Origin: a virus | DNA length: 33,231 nt | Virus record (IMG/VR): IMGVR_UViG_3300010400_000041 | Location: 1-33,231 of that record | Reading direction: 5' to 3' (one strand) | Shown: positions 2,723-26,158 of the stretch, piece by piece | Numbering within the stretch: position 1 is the stretch's first letter | Layout of the letters: every line of letters begins with the position of its first letter | Position numbers and translations under genes: made by a program | Notes under the pieces: generated by a model | Databases searched by the model: none | What the model was told of the DNA's origin: nothing | What the model saw: the letters and a program-made list of their open reading frames with translations, nothing else

Positions 2723-3673
2723 ATGGCGCTCGATTATACCACAACGTCCCTCCTATCCACATTGCGTCTATTACCCTTGATGCCGACTGTTCAAGCGTTA
2801 TTCACTGATGCGAACTTATTAACCATTTTGAATTTTGAAATGGTTAGTAAGATCTATCCAATGATAGATAATCAAACAGAAGAGTATTTTGTTGAATTAT
2901 CTGATCTTCCGTATGTGCAAGCTAATACGATCTATCCCATGCCTTCACGGGCTGTTGGTGGAAAATTACGATCAGTGTCTTTTGTAGATCCCAACAATAA
3001 TGAGATACGGATACCGCGCCTACGCCCTGAAGACATCATGTCCAACGTCAATGCGACAGGACTTGCGATTAACCCAGCATTATGGGGTTTCTACATTCAA
3101 AATAATCAAATCCGTCTCTTCTTGACAAGTGTTAATGGCGGCACATCGAATTATCAGACTTTACGATTACGGTATATTCGTCAACCTAATAGTCTAGTAG
3201 CCGTCTCAGCAGCTGCTCTTGTGGTATCAGTTAACACTGGAACTAATACAATAACAACTACCGGTATTCCAAGTAATTACAACACTTCCAGTACCTATGA
3301 CTTTATTGAAGGAAAACCACAGTTTAGTTCTTTACAAGACGATGCGATTTGTACCGCCATTTCTGGGAATGACATGACTTTTACATCTCTGCCAGTAGAT
3401 ATGCTAGGTAATGTCACAATTCAAGCTGGCGATTGGGTCTGTTTATCTGGACAGGCACCTGTTGCACAAATACCCTATGACCCTGGTTATAATCTCTTAC
3501 TTCAATTAGGCGCAGCCAAATGTCTTGAAATCCATGGAGATATTCAGGGATTTAATGTGGCTATGAGCCAAGCTTCAGATATGAAGAATTATTTTATCTC
3601 AGTTCTTACACCCCGGGTTGATGGTAATGTGATCCGTTTAACGACCCCCAATAGTTTGTACGGTTGGGACTAA
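2723..3673 (+). CDS. Putative head-tail connector or adaptor, 316 aa
   Basis: The ATG is preceded by AAGGAG, 14 bases after the tail fibre stop. The protein mixes alpha and beta character. Residues 1-55 look helical, and the middle (about 60-230) is beta-rich with repeated YxMPSRAVGGK and RLRYIRQPNSL type strands. The C-terminal part contains a helix (YNLLLQLGAAKCLEIHGD). In P22-like phages a gp4-type adaptor precedes the nozzle gene, and this gene directly precedes the nozzle-like gene at 3883. The adaptor role is inferred from order only. No diagnostic motif is seen, and another tail or minor head protein is equally possible. Confidence 0.6.
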   Translation: MALDYTTTSLLSTLRLLPLMPTVQALFTDANLLTILNFEMVSKIYPMIDNQTEEYFVELSDLPYVQANTIYPMPSRAVGGKLRSVSFVDPNNNEIRIPRLRPEDIMSNVNATGLAINPALWGFYIQNNQIRLFLTSVNGGTSNYQTLRLRYIRQPNSLVAVSAAALVVSVNTGTNTITTTGIPSNYNTSSTYDFIEGKPQFSSLQDDAICTAISGNDMTFTSLPVDMLGNVTIQAGDWVCLSGQAPVAQIPYDPGYNLLLQLGAAKCLEIHGDIQGFNVAMSQASDMKNYFISVLTPRVDGNVIRLTTPNSLYGWD

Positions 3674-3819
3674 AAGAGTTTGTTTAACGCTTTTAGATAA
3701 ATTTCATGTTGTCTTTTATTGATTCTAGCCAAGATAATTTTAAAACAATCTACACACGTCAACTCAATGGTGCCTTTGAACTTTTTACCGCAGTCTCGAC
3801 AAACTTTAATTTTAGTCAT
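3670..3819 (-). CDS. Zinc-ribbon microprotein, 49 aa, antisense within the late block
   Basis: This minus-strand gene overlaps the last 4 bases of the connector gene tail to tail. It encodes a CxxC pair (CRDC at 7-10), a short beta loop, and a second pair (CVDC at 22-25), the spacing of a compact zinc ribbon. A basic C-terminal helix (LARINKRQHEIYLKALNK) follows. The ATG lies 5 bp after a promoter -10 box and no Shine-Dalgarno site is possible if transcription starts there. As the only minus-strand gene in a 13-kb plus-strand block, it is probably expressed early. The likely role is protein or nucleic-acid binding, perhaps host takeover, but that is inference. Confidence 0.75.
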   Translation of the reverse strand: MTKIKVCRDCGKKFKGTIELTCVDCFKIILARINKRQHEIYLKALNKLF

Positions 3820-3824
3820 ATTTC

Positions 3825-3853
3825 AGTATAACAGAAAAACCAGTAAAAATCAA
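3825..3853 (-). promoter_or_regulatory. Sigma70-like promoter for the antisense zinc-ribbon gene
   Basis: On the minus strand, TTGATT (3848-3853) is followed by a 17-bp spacer and TATACT (3825-3830). Five bases later comes the ATG at 3819, so the predicted transcription start coincides with the start codon. The same geometry occurs at 24294-24322 and 26130-26158. Confidence 0.65.
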
Positions 3854-3882
3854 GGTTTACTATAAACCATAAACTATAAACT

Positions 3883-23351: not shown

Positions 23352-23482
23352 TTATTGTCTCCAAAAAATTTAATCTCTTCATCTAAATTGTATACAATAT
23401 CATTAACGACTTCTTGTACAATATTCATTATTTTTCTAGTTAATTGTAATTTTAATTCATAAGCTCTCGTATCTCTATTCAT
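23348..23482 (-). CDS. Small coiled-coil-like protein, 44 aa
   Basis: ATG 23482 overlaps the sigma-like gene stop as ATGA, and its stop overlaps the next ATG. The product is one long helix (AYELKLQLTRKIMNIVQEVV then NDIVYNLDEEIKFF). With a helix of this kind downstream of a sigma-like factor, a regulatory partner such as an anti-sigma is possible, but no evidence beyond position exists. Confidence 0.6.
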   Translation of the reverse strand: MNRDTRAYELKLQLTRKIMNIVQEVVNDIVYNLDEEIKFFGDNK

Positions 23483-23829
23483 TTTTCCCATTCCTCACAT
23501 AATTGCTTACGAACCGTTTCCCAGATCTGGGAAACACGTCCTTGTGTTAATCCTAACTTGAGTGCCGCATCTTTCTGAGTCATTGGCGGCGCCCCTTGCC
23601 ATCCTGTGAGTAGATTGAATACTTTCCATTCTTGTTTAGACAATTCTTTTTTGGCTTTTTTACAAAGTTCAATTACTCTATTCTGTAATTCTTTATTTTC
23701 TTCAATATAATACGGATTGTCTGATTCACAGACTTCGGGTTCGTATTGATTTTCCAATTCCTGATTAATATAACGCTTCAATATGGGTTTTTTGGGGACT
23801 TTTTGCCACACAACTAGATGCTTTCTCAT
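23479..23829 (-). CDS. Sigma-70 region 4-like DNA-binding protein, 116 aa
   Basis: ATG 23829, preceded by AAAGGA, is preferred over a TTG 18 bases earlier. The C-terminal half (63-112) has the sigma region 4 pattern: SKQEWKVFNLLTG, then MTQKDAALKLGLTQGRVSQI, a helix-turn-helix with Gly-Leu-Thr turn and recognition helix, then WETVRKQL. The N-terminal 60 residues are charged and lack region 2. It is likely a promoter-recognition or anti-host transcription factor that binds -35-like DNA. It is a candidate switch to plus-strand late transcription, as inference. Confidence 0.78.
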   Translation of the reverse strand: MRKHLVVWQKVPKKPILKRYINQELENQYEPEVCESDNPYYIEENKELQNRVIELCKKAKKELSKQEWKVFNLLTGWQGAPPMTQKDAALKLGLTQGRVSQIWETVRKQLCEEWEK

Positions 23830-23830
23830 A

Positions 23831-24007
23831 TCAACGTCCTTTAACAAGATCCGCCCGTTTAAGTTTAATAAATTTTAAACGATCTTCATATTCTTTCATT
23901 TCTGTTTCAAGTGTAGCAATCTGAAGCATGTGCCGTCCAATCATAACATTTAAATGTTCTGCTTCATAATCTAACTCTGCAATTGCCTCTTTAATTGTCA
24001 TTGACAT
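23831..24007 (-). CDS. Coiled-coil protein, 58 aa
   Basis: ATG 24007 has AAGGAG five bases upstream; an ATG two codons later overlaps the upstream stop as ATGA and is equally possible. The whole product is a charged heptad-rich helix (EAIAELDYEAEHLNVMIGR, then LETEMKEYEDRLKFIKLKRA). It ends two bases before the sigma-like gene. A dimerising regulator or adaptor is plausible. Family not recognised. Confidence 0.62.
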   Translation of the reverse strand: MSMTIKEAIAELDYEAEHLNVMIGRHMLQIATLETEMKEYEDRLKFIKLKRADLVKGR

Positions 24008-24288
24008 ATGGACTCCTTATCTGACCAATAGAGAATAAAGTATTTGTCATTTTGTTTAACAACGCGCACACCAGAATAAAAGATAAAAAGACGACCAGCA
24101 TTTAAACAAGCATCTTTTGCGTCTGTGAATATTCGACTATCTAGTGTCCATTGTTTTATCTTTGGTTCAATAATAGCAATCATATTGATGGGGTATATTG
24201 TCGACTGATTATATGGGTCAATCCATCCTGAATACCCAACTTCATCAAATATCTCTCCATCATTATCTTCAAAGATAGGATCGTTCAT
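23998..24288 (-). CDS. Hypothetical protein with leaderless-type start, 96 aa
   Basis: ATG 24288 lies exactly five bases after a perfect TATAAT box, so transcription should start at the start codon itself. AAAGGA lies further upstream within the promoter spacer and would not be in that mRNA. The product is acidic at the start (NDPIFEDNDGEIFDEVGYSG), with aromatic beta strands later (LFIFYSGVRVVKQ, YFILYWSDKE). No family recognised. Its strong promoter suggests very early, possibly host-takeover, expression. Confidence 0.72.
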   Translation of the reverse strand: MNDPIFEDNDGEIFDEVGYSGWIDPYNQSTIYPINMIAIIEPKIKQWTLDSRIFTDAKDACLNAGRLFIFYSGVRVVKQNDKYFILYWSDKESICQ

Positions 24289-24293
24289 AATTT

Positions 24294-24322
24294 ATTATAT
24301 CATCCTTTCTTAGATTTGTCAA
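24294..24322 (-). promoter_or_regulatory. Perfect consensus sigma70 promoter
   Basis: TTGACA (24317-24322), 17-bp spacer, TATAAT (24294-24299), then AAATT and ATG at 24288. All 12 positions match the sigma70 consensus. It overlaps the end of the upstream gene. The predicted start of transcription is the A of ATG, giving a leaderless mRNA. Confidence 0.85.
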
Positions 24323-24518
24323 GACCTTTCTTATCTGTTGGCACATTTTCAATCCATTTATAGTCTTTATCTGTTCCATCTGTTTCTGTATGGCTGTTAT
24401 CGTAGATAGCTTGCCGTCCTGCGAGATACGCAGCTTTCTTCTCTGCTCTAAGCCACATGAAAGAGGCTAATGTAAGTTGAATGGTTAACCAGATAATGAT
24501 TATATTCTCTTTATTCAT
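24300..24518 (-). CDS. Small membrane protein, 72 aa
   Basis: ATG 24518 is chosen because it overlaps the upstream stop as ATGA. Residues 4-22 (ENIIIIWLTIQLTLASFMW) are a membrane anchor followed by basic residues, then a hydrophilic region rich in Lys, Asp and Thr (TETDGTDKDYKWIENVPTDK). It is likely a membrane-anchored protein with a short soluble tail. Function unknown. Confidence 0.68.
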   Translation of the reverse strand: MNKENIIIIWLTIQLTLASFMWLRAEKKAAYLAGRQAIYDNSHTETDGTDKDYKWIENVPTDKKGLDKSKKG

Positions 24519-24730
24519 TTCCCTGCCGCTTTGCGCCAAGATTCCCATGCTTCACAACCAGAACAATCCTCACCATGACAAATGTGATCGGCTTGCGTGC
24601 CGATGACTTTCTCTGCCGCTTTAAGACGGGCAACGAGAGCGTGTCCATTGGCTGTACTTAGTGGTACATGCGGACTGTATTGTTTTAGATCTTCTTTCAA
24701 TCGCTTCAAATCATCGTCAGTGAAGGTCAT
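24515..24730 (-). CDS. Conserved phage-type small protein, 71 aa
   Basis: The product MTFTDDDLKRLKEDL... is helical and charged. It carries the stretch ANGHALVARLKAAEKVI, a CHGEDCSGC motif and the ending WESWRKAAGK. I recall this ending and the 'ALIARLEAAE' pattern from many short phage proteins next to nucleotide-metabolism genes, of unknown function. The cysteines could bind metal. Its ATG overlaps the previous stop as ATGA. Confidence 0.72.
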   Translation of the reverse strand: MTFTDDDLKRLKEDLKQYSPHVPLSTANGHALVARLKAAEKVIGTQADHICHGEDCSGCEAWESWRKAAGK

Positions 24731-25091: not shown

Positions 25092-25604
25092 TTATTCCTG
25101 AACCCGCGCTAAACGAGCCTCTAAGGCACTTAGCTTCGCGTTTAAGGCCTCAATACGTCGGTCTTCATAGCTAGACCCTAGTTTAAACACAAACCGCCCA
25201 CCAATCGTTGAATTGTGCCCATTACCAAATACATCCGATCCAGGTGTTGATCCAAACACATAGACATCGTAAACCTGCACTTCAAAGTACTTAGTATCGA
25301 CTAGACGCACAGCAACATCAGCAGCAAGATCAGTACCATGGAATGCGGCTGAAGTATCTTTACCATCTTTGCCCGGAGTTCCAGCAACACCATTGGAACC
25401 ATTTTGACCATTAACCCCGTTCTGCCCATTAGTTCCGTTAGAGCCATTCAATCCTGCTTGTCCCTGAGGACCTTGTGGTCCTGTTGGACCGGGTGTGCCT
25501 GAACCAGAACAACCGTTACCATTTCCATTGTCATTACCGCAGTTAGCAAAAGCTGTGCCTGTCAGACTGCCTAAAATCAAAAATGTCAATAATTTAATCT
25601 TCAT
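25092..25604 (-). CDS. Secreted collagen-like protein with C-terminal coiled coil, 170 aa
   Basis: A signal peptide (MKIKLLTFLILGSLTGTAFA) is followed by an Asn/Gly-rich stretch with two cysteines. Sixteen Gly-X-Y triplets (36-83) include GPTGPQGPQGQAG and GTPGKDGKD. A beta-rich domain (FEVQVYDVYVFGS, GGRFVFKLGSSY) follows and ends in a coiled coil (RRIEALNAKLSALEARLARV). Collagen-like repeats and coiled coil imply a trimer. The signal peptide implies export, so it is unlikely to be a tail fibre. It could alter the host envelope or cell surface. GGAGGA precedes the ATG, which overlaps the previous stop. Confidence 0.85.
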   Translation of the reverse strand: MKIKLLTFLILGSLTGTAFANCGNDNGNGNGCSGSGTPGPTGPQGPQGQAGLNGSNGTNGQNGVNGQNGSNGVAGTPGKDGKDTSAAFHGTDLAADVAVRLVDTKYFEVQVYDVYVFGSTPGSDVFGNGHNSTIGGRFVFKLGSSYEDRRIEALNAKLSALEARLARVQE

Positions 25605-25798
25605 ATAATAAATCCTCCAAGTTTAGTTTCAATACGTTTAACGATTGCTTTCTTGATCTCTGGGTCAAGTCTAACATAGATTGGTCTTCCTGTCAAGTCC
25701 TTTTGTGGTGTCCATGCTAAAACCTTTGTGGTTATTGACTTTTCAGCCATAATATCTTCAAACTGTTCAGCTAAAGACTCTAACAATAGGTTTCTCAT
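25601..25798 (-). CDS. Hypothetical protein, 65 aa
   Basis: AAAGGAG precedes ATG 25798, and the stop overlaps the collagen-like gene as ATGA. The product has a helical start (RNLLLESLAEQFEDIMAEKS), a short basic strand region and a helix (DPEIKKAIVKRIETKLGG). No motif is recognised. The second gene of the first early operon. Confidence 0.7.
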   Translation of the reverse strand: MRNLLLESLAEQFEDIMAEKSITTKVLAWTPQKDLTGRPIYVRLDPEIKKAIVKRIETKLGGFII

Positions 25799-26124
25799 AG
25801 ATCTCCTTTTATGATTCCGATTTCTATTAGACCTTCTAAACTGAATGTGCTAAACTGCCGATTATACCCATTTTTGTCATAGAATGGTGACAAGATTGTC
25901 CACATCCTAATCCAACCGCCTTTGAAATCACTTTGCGGTTTTTCGGACTTTAAACGCGGATATTGGTGCACGGCTTGCCGCCATTCGGCTCGTTCTTCTT
26001 CAACTGTCATCCATTCAAACGCGTTACTAAACGGACTATGCATTTCTATATTTTTGAATGTGACTTCTGTAAATCTTACATTGCCGCTGAAGTCTTTTTT
26101 GATTAGATTATTTGATTGTTTCAT
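25795..26124 (-). CDS. First early gene, leaderless-type start, 109 aa
   Basis: ATG 26124 is chosen because it lies exactly five bases after the -10 box of the adjacent promoter. ATG 26130 and a TTG at 26142 would lie in or before that box and could not be in the mRNA. The product is soluble, with aromatic motifs (FEWMTVEEERAEWRQAVHQY, GWIRMWTILSPFYDKNGYNR). The first gene of a phage early operon is often a host-takeover protein. No family is recognised. Confidence 0.68.
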   Translation of the reverse strand: MKQSNNLIKKDFSGNVRFTEVTFKNIEMHSPFSNAFEWMTVEEERAEWRQAVHQYPRLKSEKPQSDFKGGWIRMWTILSPFYDKNGYNRQFSTFSLEGLIEIGIIKGDL

Positions 26125-26129
26125 ACTCA

Positions 26130-26158
26130 TGTATAACCCCAAAAGTATTAAAAGTCAA
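26130..26158 (-). promoter_or_regulatory. Sigma70-like promoter of the leftward early operon
   Basis: TTGACT (26153-26158), a 17-bp spacer, TATACA (26130-26135), then five bases and ATG at 26124. The geometry is identical to the promoter at 24294-24322. Reads into all the early and replication genes. Confidence 0.7.

Follow-up and report, generated by a model that had tools for sequence, protein, structure and literature searches.

Near-consensus sigma-70 promoters abutting the start codon predict leaderless mRNAs in an uncultured phage and in part of its relatives

Introduction

That some bacterial phyla use leaderless mRNAs is already known, and single phage genes, lambda cI among them, provide further examples. 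In the cI mRNA synthesized from PRM the -10 box abuts the ATG (TAGATT-N6-ATG), a pyrimidine occupies position -1, a Shine-Dalgarno (SD) sequence is absent and the host polymerase is used; the locus described here shares the position of the -10 box and the pyrimidine, and for it an mRNA without SD and the use of host polymerase are predicted. Yet cI is one maintenance gene under a weak activator-dependent promoter, whereas this locus and its relatives employ near-consensus promoters located 5-6 bases ahead of the start codons of several genes. A remark that phage transcripts are often leaderless is found in a transcriptome paper (PMC5312081). As in the genes considered below, for which an mRNA without SD is predicted, the -10 box lies few bases from the ATG in the leaderless genes of Deinococcus-Thermus, mycobacteria and other bacteria, which have no SD (PMC3160421, PMC12340547). 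The survey of bacterial genomes defines such genes by the signal TANNNT, positioned about 12 bp upstream in a range of 8-14 (PMC3160421), and in Deinococcus spacing of 6-7 bases between the -10 box and the ATG is the commoner one (PMC12340547). Spacing of 6-7 dominates in bacterial leaderless genes, and their -35 box is often weak or absent, while the promoters of the present phage combine a strong -35 box with a spacer of 17 bp and frequently carry an extended -10 element. 70S ribosomes bind the 5' AUG of leaderless mRNAs (PMC9031893), and the class of E. coli mRNAs with a 5'-terminal upstream AUG (5'-uAUG), which share with the reading proposed here an AUG at the very 5' end, also binds them and can influence the downstream gene (PMC4965119). 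LUZ24-like podoviruses have a similar set of replication genes (split exonuclease/polymerase, primase-helicase) and similar host promoters (TTGACA-17-TATAAT), but in LUZ24 no ORF-opening ATG occurs 5-7 bases behind them; one LUZ24 promoter has an ATG at 8 bases, behind which GGGAGG and another ATG are found. Here, we address the arrangement of three promoters and start codons in a stretch of 33,231 bases (hereafter the window), which is a complete IMG/VR record with 42% G+C.

Results and Discussion

Genomic context of the promoters

The plus strand of the window encodes a P22-like portal, the large terminase and further structural genes up to approximately 13.4 kb, while an operon on the minus strand runs from 26.1 kb to 13.8 kb and comprises numerous small genes besides those for a primase-helicase, exonucleases and a family A polymerase. 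The window proteins scanned include no phage RNA polymerase, and the early promoters should accordingly be read by the host enzyme. All three sites indicated by a preceding sequence-only reading (26130-26158, 24294-24322 and 3825-3853, minus strand) were found in place. Promoter A (26158..26122 including the ATG, minus strand) reads TTGACT-17-TATACA-TGAGT-ATG and matches the consensus in 9 of 12 positions; its -35 box occupies 26153..26158, its spacer tttaatacttttggggt 26136..26152 and its -10 box, in which the last position is not T, 26130..26135. It precedes gene A (25795..26124, minus strand; ATG 26124-26122), the first in the early operon, with 109 predicted residues; another in-frame ATG starts at the last base of the -10 box (26130). 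Promoter B (24322..24286, minus strand; TTGACA-17-TATAAT-AAATT-ATG) is a perfect 12/12 match with the -35 box at 24317..24322 and an extended -10 element (TGA ahead of 24294..24299), and serves gene B (96 aa; 23998..24288, minus strand; ATG 24288-24286) within the same operon, 12 bases after the stop codon that ends gene 24300-24548. Promoter C (3853..3817, minus strand; TTGATT-17-TATACT-GAAAT-ATG; 9/12 matches) has its -35 box at 3848..3853 and its -10 box, again extended (TGT ahead), at 3825..3830. Gene C (3670..3819, minus strand), 49 codons with two CxxC motifs and zinc-ribbon-like, stands alone among plus-strand structural genes, so that assignment to early genes, suggested previously for all three, suits A and B, whereas for C it is unproven.

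The separation of the -35 and -10 boxes is 17 bp in each case, inside the 16-18 bp typical of housekeeping sigma-70 promoters; 10 bases lie between the A in the second position of the -10 box and the start codon, inside the 8-14 range of leaderless genes; and each start is T-ATG, that is, an AUG start codon with a preceding pyrimidine. Most probably A, B and C are host sigma-70 promoters at which transcription starts on the A of the ATG, and the gene would then be read from a leaderless 5'-AUG mRNA. The exact start of gene B is less sure, because its homologues in two related contigs (G001 and G003) align only from about residue 31-36 onward, the first 35 residues being absent from them, and because another, weaker promoter-like site (24221-24183, minus strand; TTGACC-18-TATACC with an ATG at 8 bases) precedes Met36, at about which these homologues begin.

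Chance expectation in the window

Over both strands the window contains just three exact matches to TTGA-N19-TATA-N7-ATG, and in each of them the ATG is the first one of a plausible gene, while 150 sequences generated by an order-2 Markov model contained 0.033 matches on average and never more than one. The matches concentrate at the 17-bp spacer and ATG distance of five, other spacers and distances giving isolated hits only. Accidental consensus matches in AT-rich DNA deserve consideration, since the consensus is short and, if one mismatch is allowed, about one match per window is expected; a shuffle figure of 12 in 100 refers to that one-mismatch pattern and not to the exact one. The excess of exact matches bears out the earlier assertion that identical spacing is improbable by chance and, together with the pooled sites and the pile-up in IMG/VR described below, refutes this explanation statistically, leaving it with practically no credit.

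Recurrence in relatives reached by protein homology

Proteins A, B and C gave no direct relatives in the viral contigs and phage records searched, and relatives were therefore sought via the polymerase and the exonuclease; a terminase search against bacterial genomes produced no match. Contig G001 carries a polymerase 59% identical to that of the window, and other contigs were taken by exonuclease homology. A remote homologue of gene A in G001 (L005 4607-4855, minus strand; 30.7% identity over 75 aa) has TTGACT-17-TACACT-N5-ATG at its start. Further abutting sites were recorded in G001 (two, at six and five bases), G003 (two, both at six), G005 (two, at six and five) and G015 (one, at six). 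In G003 and in G015, where the product is a lytic enzyme with an SLT domain, the signal-peptide-like N-terminus starts exactly at the abutting ATG. The more remote members G006, G007, G009, G010, G012 and G032 have no ATG abutting at 5-6 bases, and the feature thus belongs to part of the group. A search for homologues of the relatives' predicted leaderless genes in named phages produced distant matches or none. Promoter-like sites also occur within coding sequence conserved between G001 and G003 (L005 2099, L046 17243), but were disregarded, since they could simply mirror a conserved peptide.

The spacer of promoter A resembles those of G003 and G005 promoters, and a motif free of any ATG, TTGAC-N-TT-N6-TTTTGG[AG]G[GT]-TATA, was searched across all IMG/VR. 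Besides promoter A, the TT-N6-TTTTGG[AG]G[GT] spacer is present in early promoters in six further IMG/VR contigs. An ATG follows at five bases in the window, in G034, G035 and G036 and at one G005 site; in G003 it stands at six bases and in G033 at nine, where the ORF it opens is short and precedes an SD-led gene; at one G005 site it is lacking. The G035 locus at first ended inside the -10 box, and the ATG at five bases emerged once longer sequence was fetched. Among the four new contigs only G036 has a recognizable relative of the window polymerase, and a distant one (28%). A more far-reaching proposal, that TTGAC-N-TT-N6-TTTTGGGG[GT]-TATACT-N5-ATG is a cassette common to phages with no close kinship in their replication genes, fixing the starts of transcription and translation of first-expressed genes to one base and so defining a phage-wide class of early mRNAs which would load 70S ribosomes and whose production would continue when SD-led initiation is impaired, is doubtful at present.

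The four near-identical promoter and leader copies in G033 (L329 4315, 5956, 7924 and 10753, plus strand; TTGACT-17-TATACT-TCAGTCACAATGAGGGAAACGAA) are a repeated expression cassette; three of the four open a short ORF at nine bases and at least the first two precede an SD-led gene.

Pooled statistics and the position of the start codon

Fourteen phage records, leaving out G033 with its four repeated promoters, were pooled to give 26 sites matching TTGAC-N18-TA[TC]A[ACT][TA], an ATG being counted if its ORF had at least 30 aa. Ten sites have the ATG at five bases and four at six, 14 versus 0.35 expected, with a nominal p of 5e-19 that ignores kinship of the phages and the fact that some of the records came in through the promoter motif. 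Enrichment in related genomes, proposed beforehand as a check, is thereby confirmed, though for a spacing of five or six rather than the exact five. No other ATG occurs at 0-4, 7 or 9-19 bases; one at eight is a second ATG right behind that at five, and the remainder lie at 20 bases or more, often with an SD. Abutment of an ATG is not a general property of strong promoters in the clade, several of which lead to SD-led genes 20-40 nt on.

Transcription preferably initiates at a purine (+1) that follows a pyrimidine (-1). A pyrimidine precedes the ATG in 17 of 17 promoter-abutting starts versus 52 of 127 SD-led starts of the same records (p 1e-6), and the corresponding proportions in IMG/VR are 22/27 and 10/23; given this preference, the bias independently supports a transcript beginning at the A.

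Generality was assessed on an IMG/VR sample, not random, of TTGACA-17-TATA[AC]T promoters with an ATG within 20 bases (98 sites among the matches listed). Among the matches listed, ATGs opening long ORFs fall at 5-8 bases in 32 of 63 cases (3, 15, 9 and 5 at distances of 5, 6, 7 and 8, respectively) and lack an SD, as compared with 14 of 58 for ORFs shorter than 40 aa, which are spread out (p 0.002). A like scan of bacterial genomes, again not a random sample, revealed no pile-up, with 4 of 26 at 5-8 bases among the matches listed, mostly Clostridia (p 0.0016 versus IMG/VR). As with the pooled sites, these p-values take no account of phylogeny. Because the long ORFs of IMG/VR pile up in this interval and the bacterial sample does not, promoter-abutting ATGs appear to be common in uncultured phages; distances of 6-7 exceed that of five among the IMG/VR matches listed and appear to be the favoured spacing, with the five of the window at its short edge. 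At such an edge transcription could begin at the G of the ATG in some transcripts.

The same data bear on the notion that an ATG in this position is needed for promoter escape or the first stage of transcription and is unrelated to translation. TA at -1/+1 is indeed a favoured initiator, but among the IMG/VR matches listed enrichment at 5-8 bases is confined to ATGs that open a long ORF, and strong promoters elsewhere in the same genomes have no ATG there, their SD-led genes following 20-40 nt on, which makes this explanation extremely improbable.

SD sequences and alternative routes of translation

It had been claimed that no SD could be present in the three mRNAs. This holds for gene C, which has none upstream; gene A has GGGG 13 bases upstream of the ATG, and gene B has just AAAGGA, about 14 bases ahead of its start and within the preceding gene. 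Neither would be part of a transcript that starts at the A of the ATG, and for them the claim is strictly true only under that condition. As to the accompanying statement that most genes of the operon are SD-led or have overlapping starts, a usable SD is present at many other minus-strand genes, although several lack one.

G-runs 9-13 bases before the ATG characterize half of the promoters and could serve as a distant SD in read-through transcripts. One may accordingly picture longer transcripts from an upstream start that are translated via the G-run of the spacer (GGGG or GGAGG) or by coupling to the preceding gene. Spacers in G003, G005, G035 and G036 end with GGAGG or GGGGG, with an anti-SD energy of about -10 and 9-12 nt from the ATG; GGGG is present at A; a stop codon precedes B by 12 bases and the homologue of A in G001 by one base. 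Eight of the 16 promoters, namely C, three of G001, the first of G003, the third of G036, that of G015 and B, which qualifies only weakly, are nevertheless devoid of the run; where present it keeps its phase relative to the -10 box and mostly reads GGGG rather than GGAGG, the better SD; A heads its operon and C stands alone; and the pyrimidine at -1 is left unexplained. Taken together, these data make translation from read-through mRNAs quite improbable.

A 5'-terminal AUG may alternatively act mainly as a ribosome landing site or open a short upstream ORF, the main product being made from a later SD-led ATG, as in the 5'-uAUG class of E. coli. SD-led ATGs some 20-60 nt downstream do occur in the relatives: behind the first promoter of G001, where the ATG at six bases is followed by AGGAGG and then, 30 nt in, by another ATG in frame; in G008, where a 13-codon ORF precedes an SD-led gene; in G034, with an SD-like site at codon 9; and in G033, whose ATG at nine bases opens ORFs of 15-19 codons ahead of SD-led genes. 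In contrast, none of the window genes A, B and C shows an in-frame ATG with an SD close to its 5' end, and among the IMG/VR matches listed the pile-up of ATGs is restricted to long ORFs. For the window genes this alternative is therefore rated as unlikely, and the leaderless reading remains the preferred one.

Proposed mode of initiation

According to the leaderless reading, the host sigma-70 polymerase would start the transcript on the A of the ATG, yielding an mRNA that begins 5'-AUG, and ribosomes, mainly 70S particles, would bind this end by the established leaderless route. Its prediction from the sequence alone is well supported by enrichment of the geometry, its recurrence with 5-6 bases in phages both related and unrelated to this one, the coupling to long ORFs and the pyrimidine-purine initiator. 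The feature belongs to a known mode of initiation, here used repeatedly. Compactness is its likely benefit: a promoter could be inserted before any ORF without leader or SD and would be fired immediately by the host polymerase, a layout that, as we conjecture, would be of use to small genes expressed first and to single insertions like C. That host-takeover genes evade ribosome selection in this manner, or that direct use of 70S particles is its purpose, as also suggested, is speculation. If confirmed, the arrangement would mean that these phages make repeated and predictable use of leaderless mRNAs for small early genes, and their role during infection, an old question, would become directly testable. 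It also matters for annotation, as promoter-abutting starts without SD are often missed or shifted downstream, and small genes like the 49-codon gene C likewise.

Accompanying features

An Rfam scan of the window found no RNA family. The window has no tRNA gene, while in G001 one (L005 6463-6534, plus strand) is located in the large intergenic region beside the early promoters. Within the early operon of the window, a collagen-repeat protein gene (25092-25604, minus strand) with a signal-peptide-like start is odd among early genes. A small early protein of 122 aa (23479-23847, minus strand) contains a helix-turn-helix like that of sigma-70 region 4 (PHROG phrog_351; Pfam Sigma70_r4 slightly under the cut-off), and the G001 protein in the equivalent place (L005 2398-2901, minus strand) matches a related helix-turn-helix family; the former is possibly a sigma-like phage regulator of later genes. 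Finally, palindromes just upstream of the -35 box (GCCTTTAGGC, GGGTCTAAAGACCC and GGTTTATAGTAAACC) accompany several promoters (L005 5371-5386; L056 16914-16929 and 17037-17052; window 3853-3868, where GGTTTATAGTAAACC lies immediately ahead of promoter C) and are possible operators.
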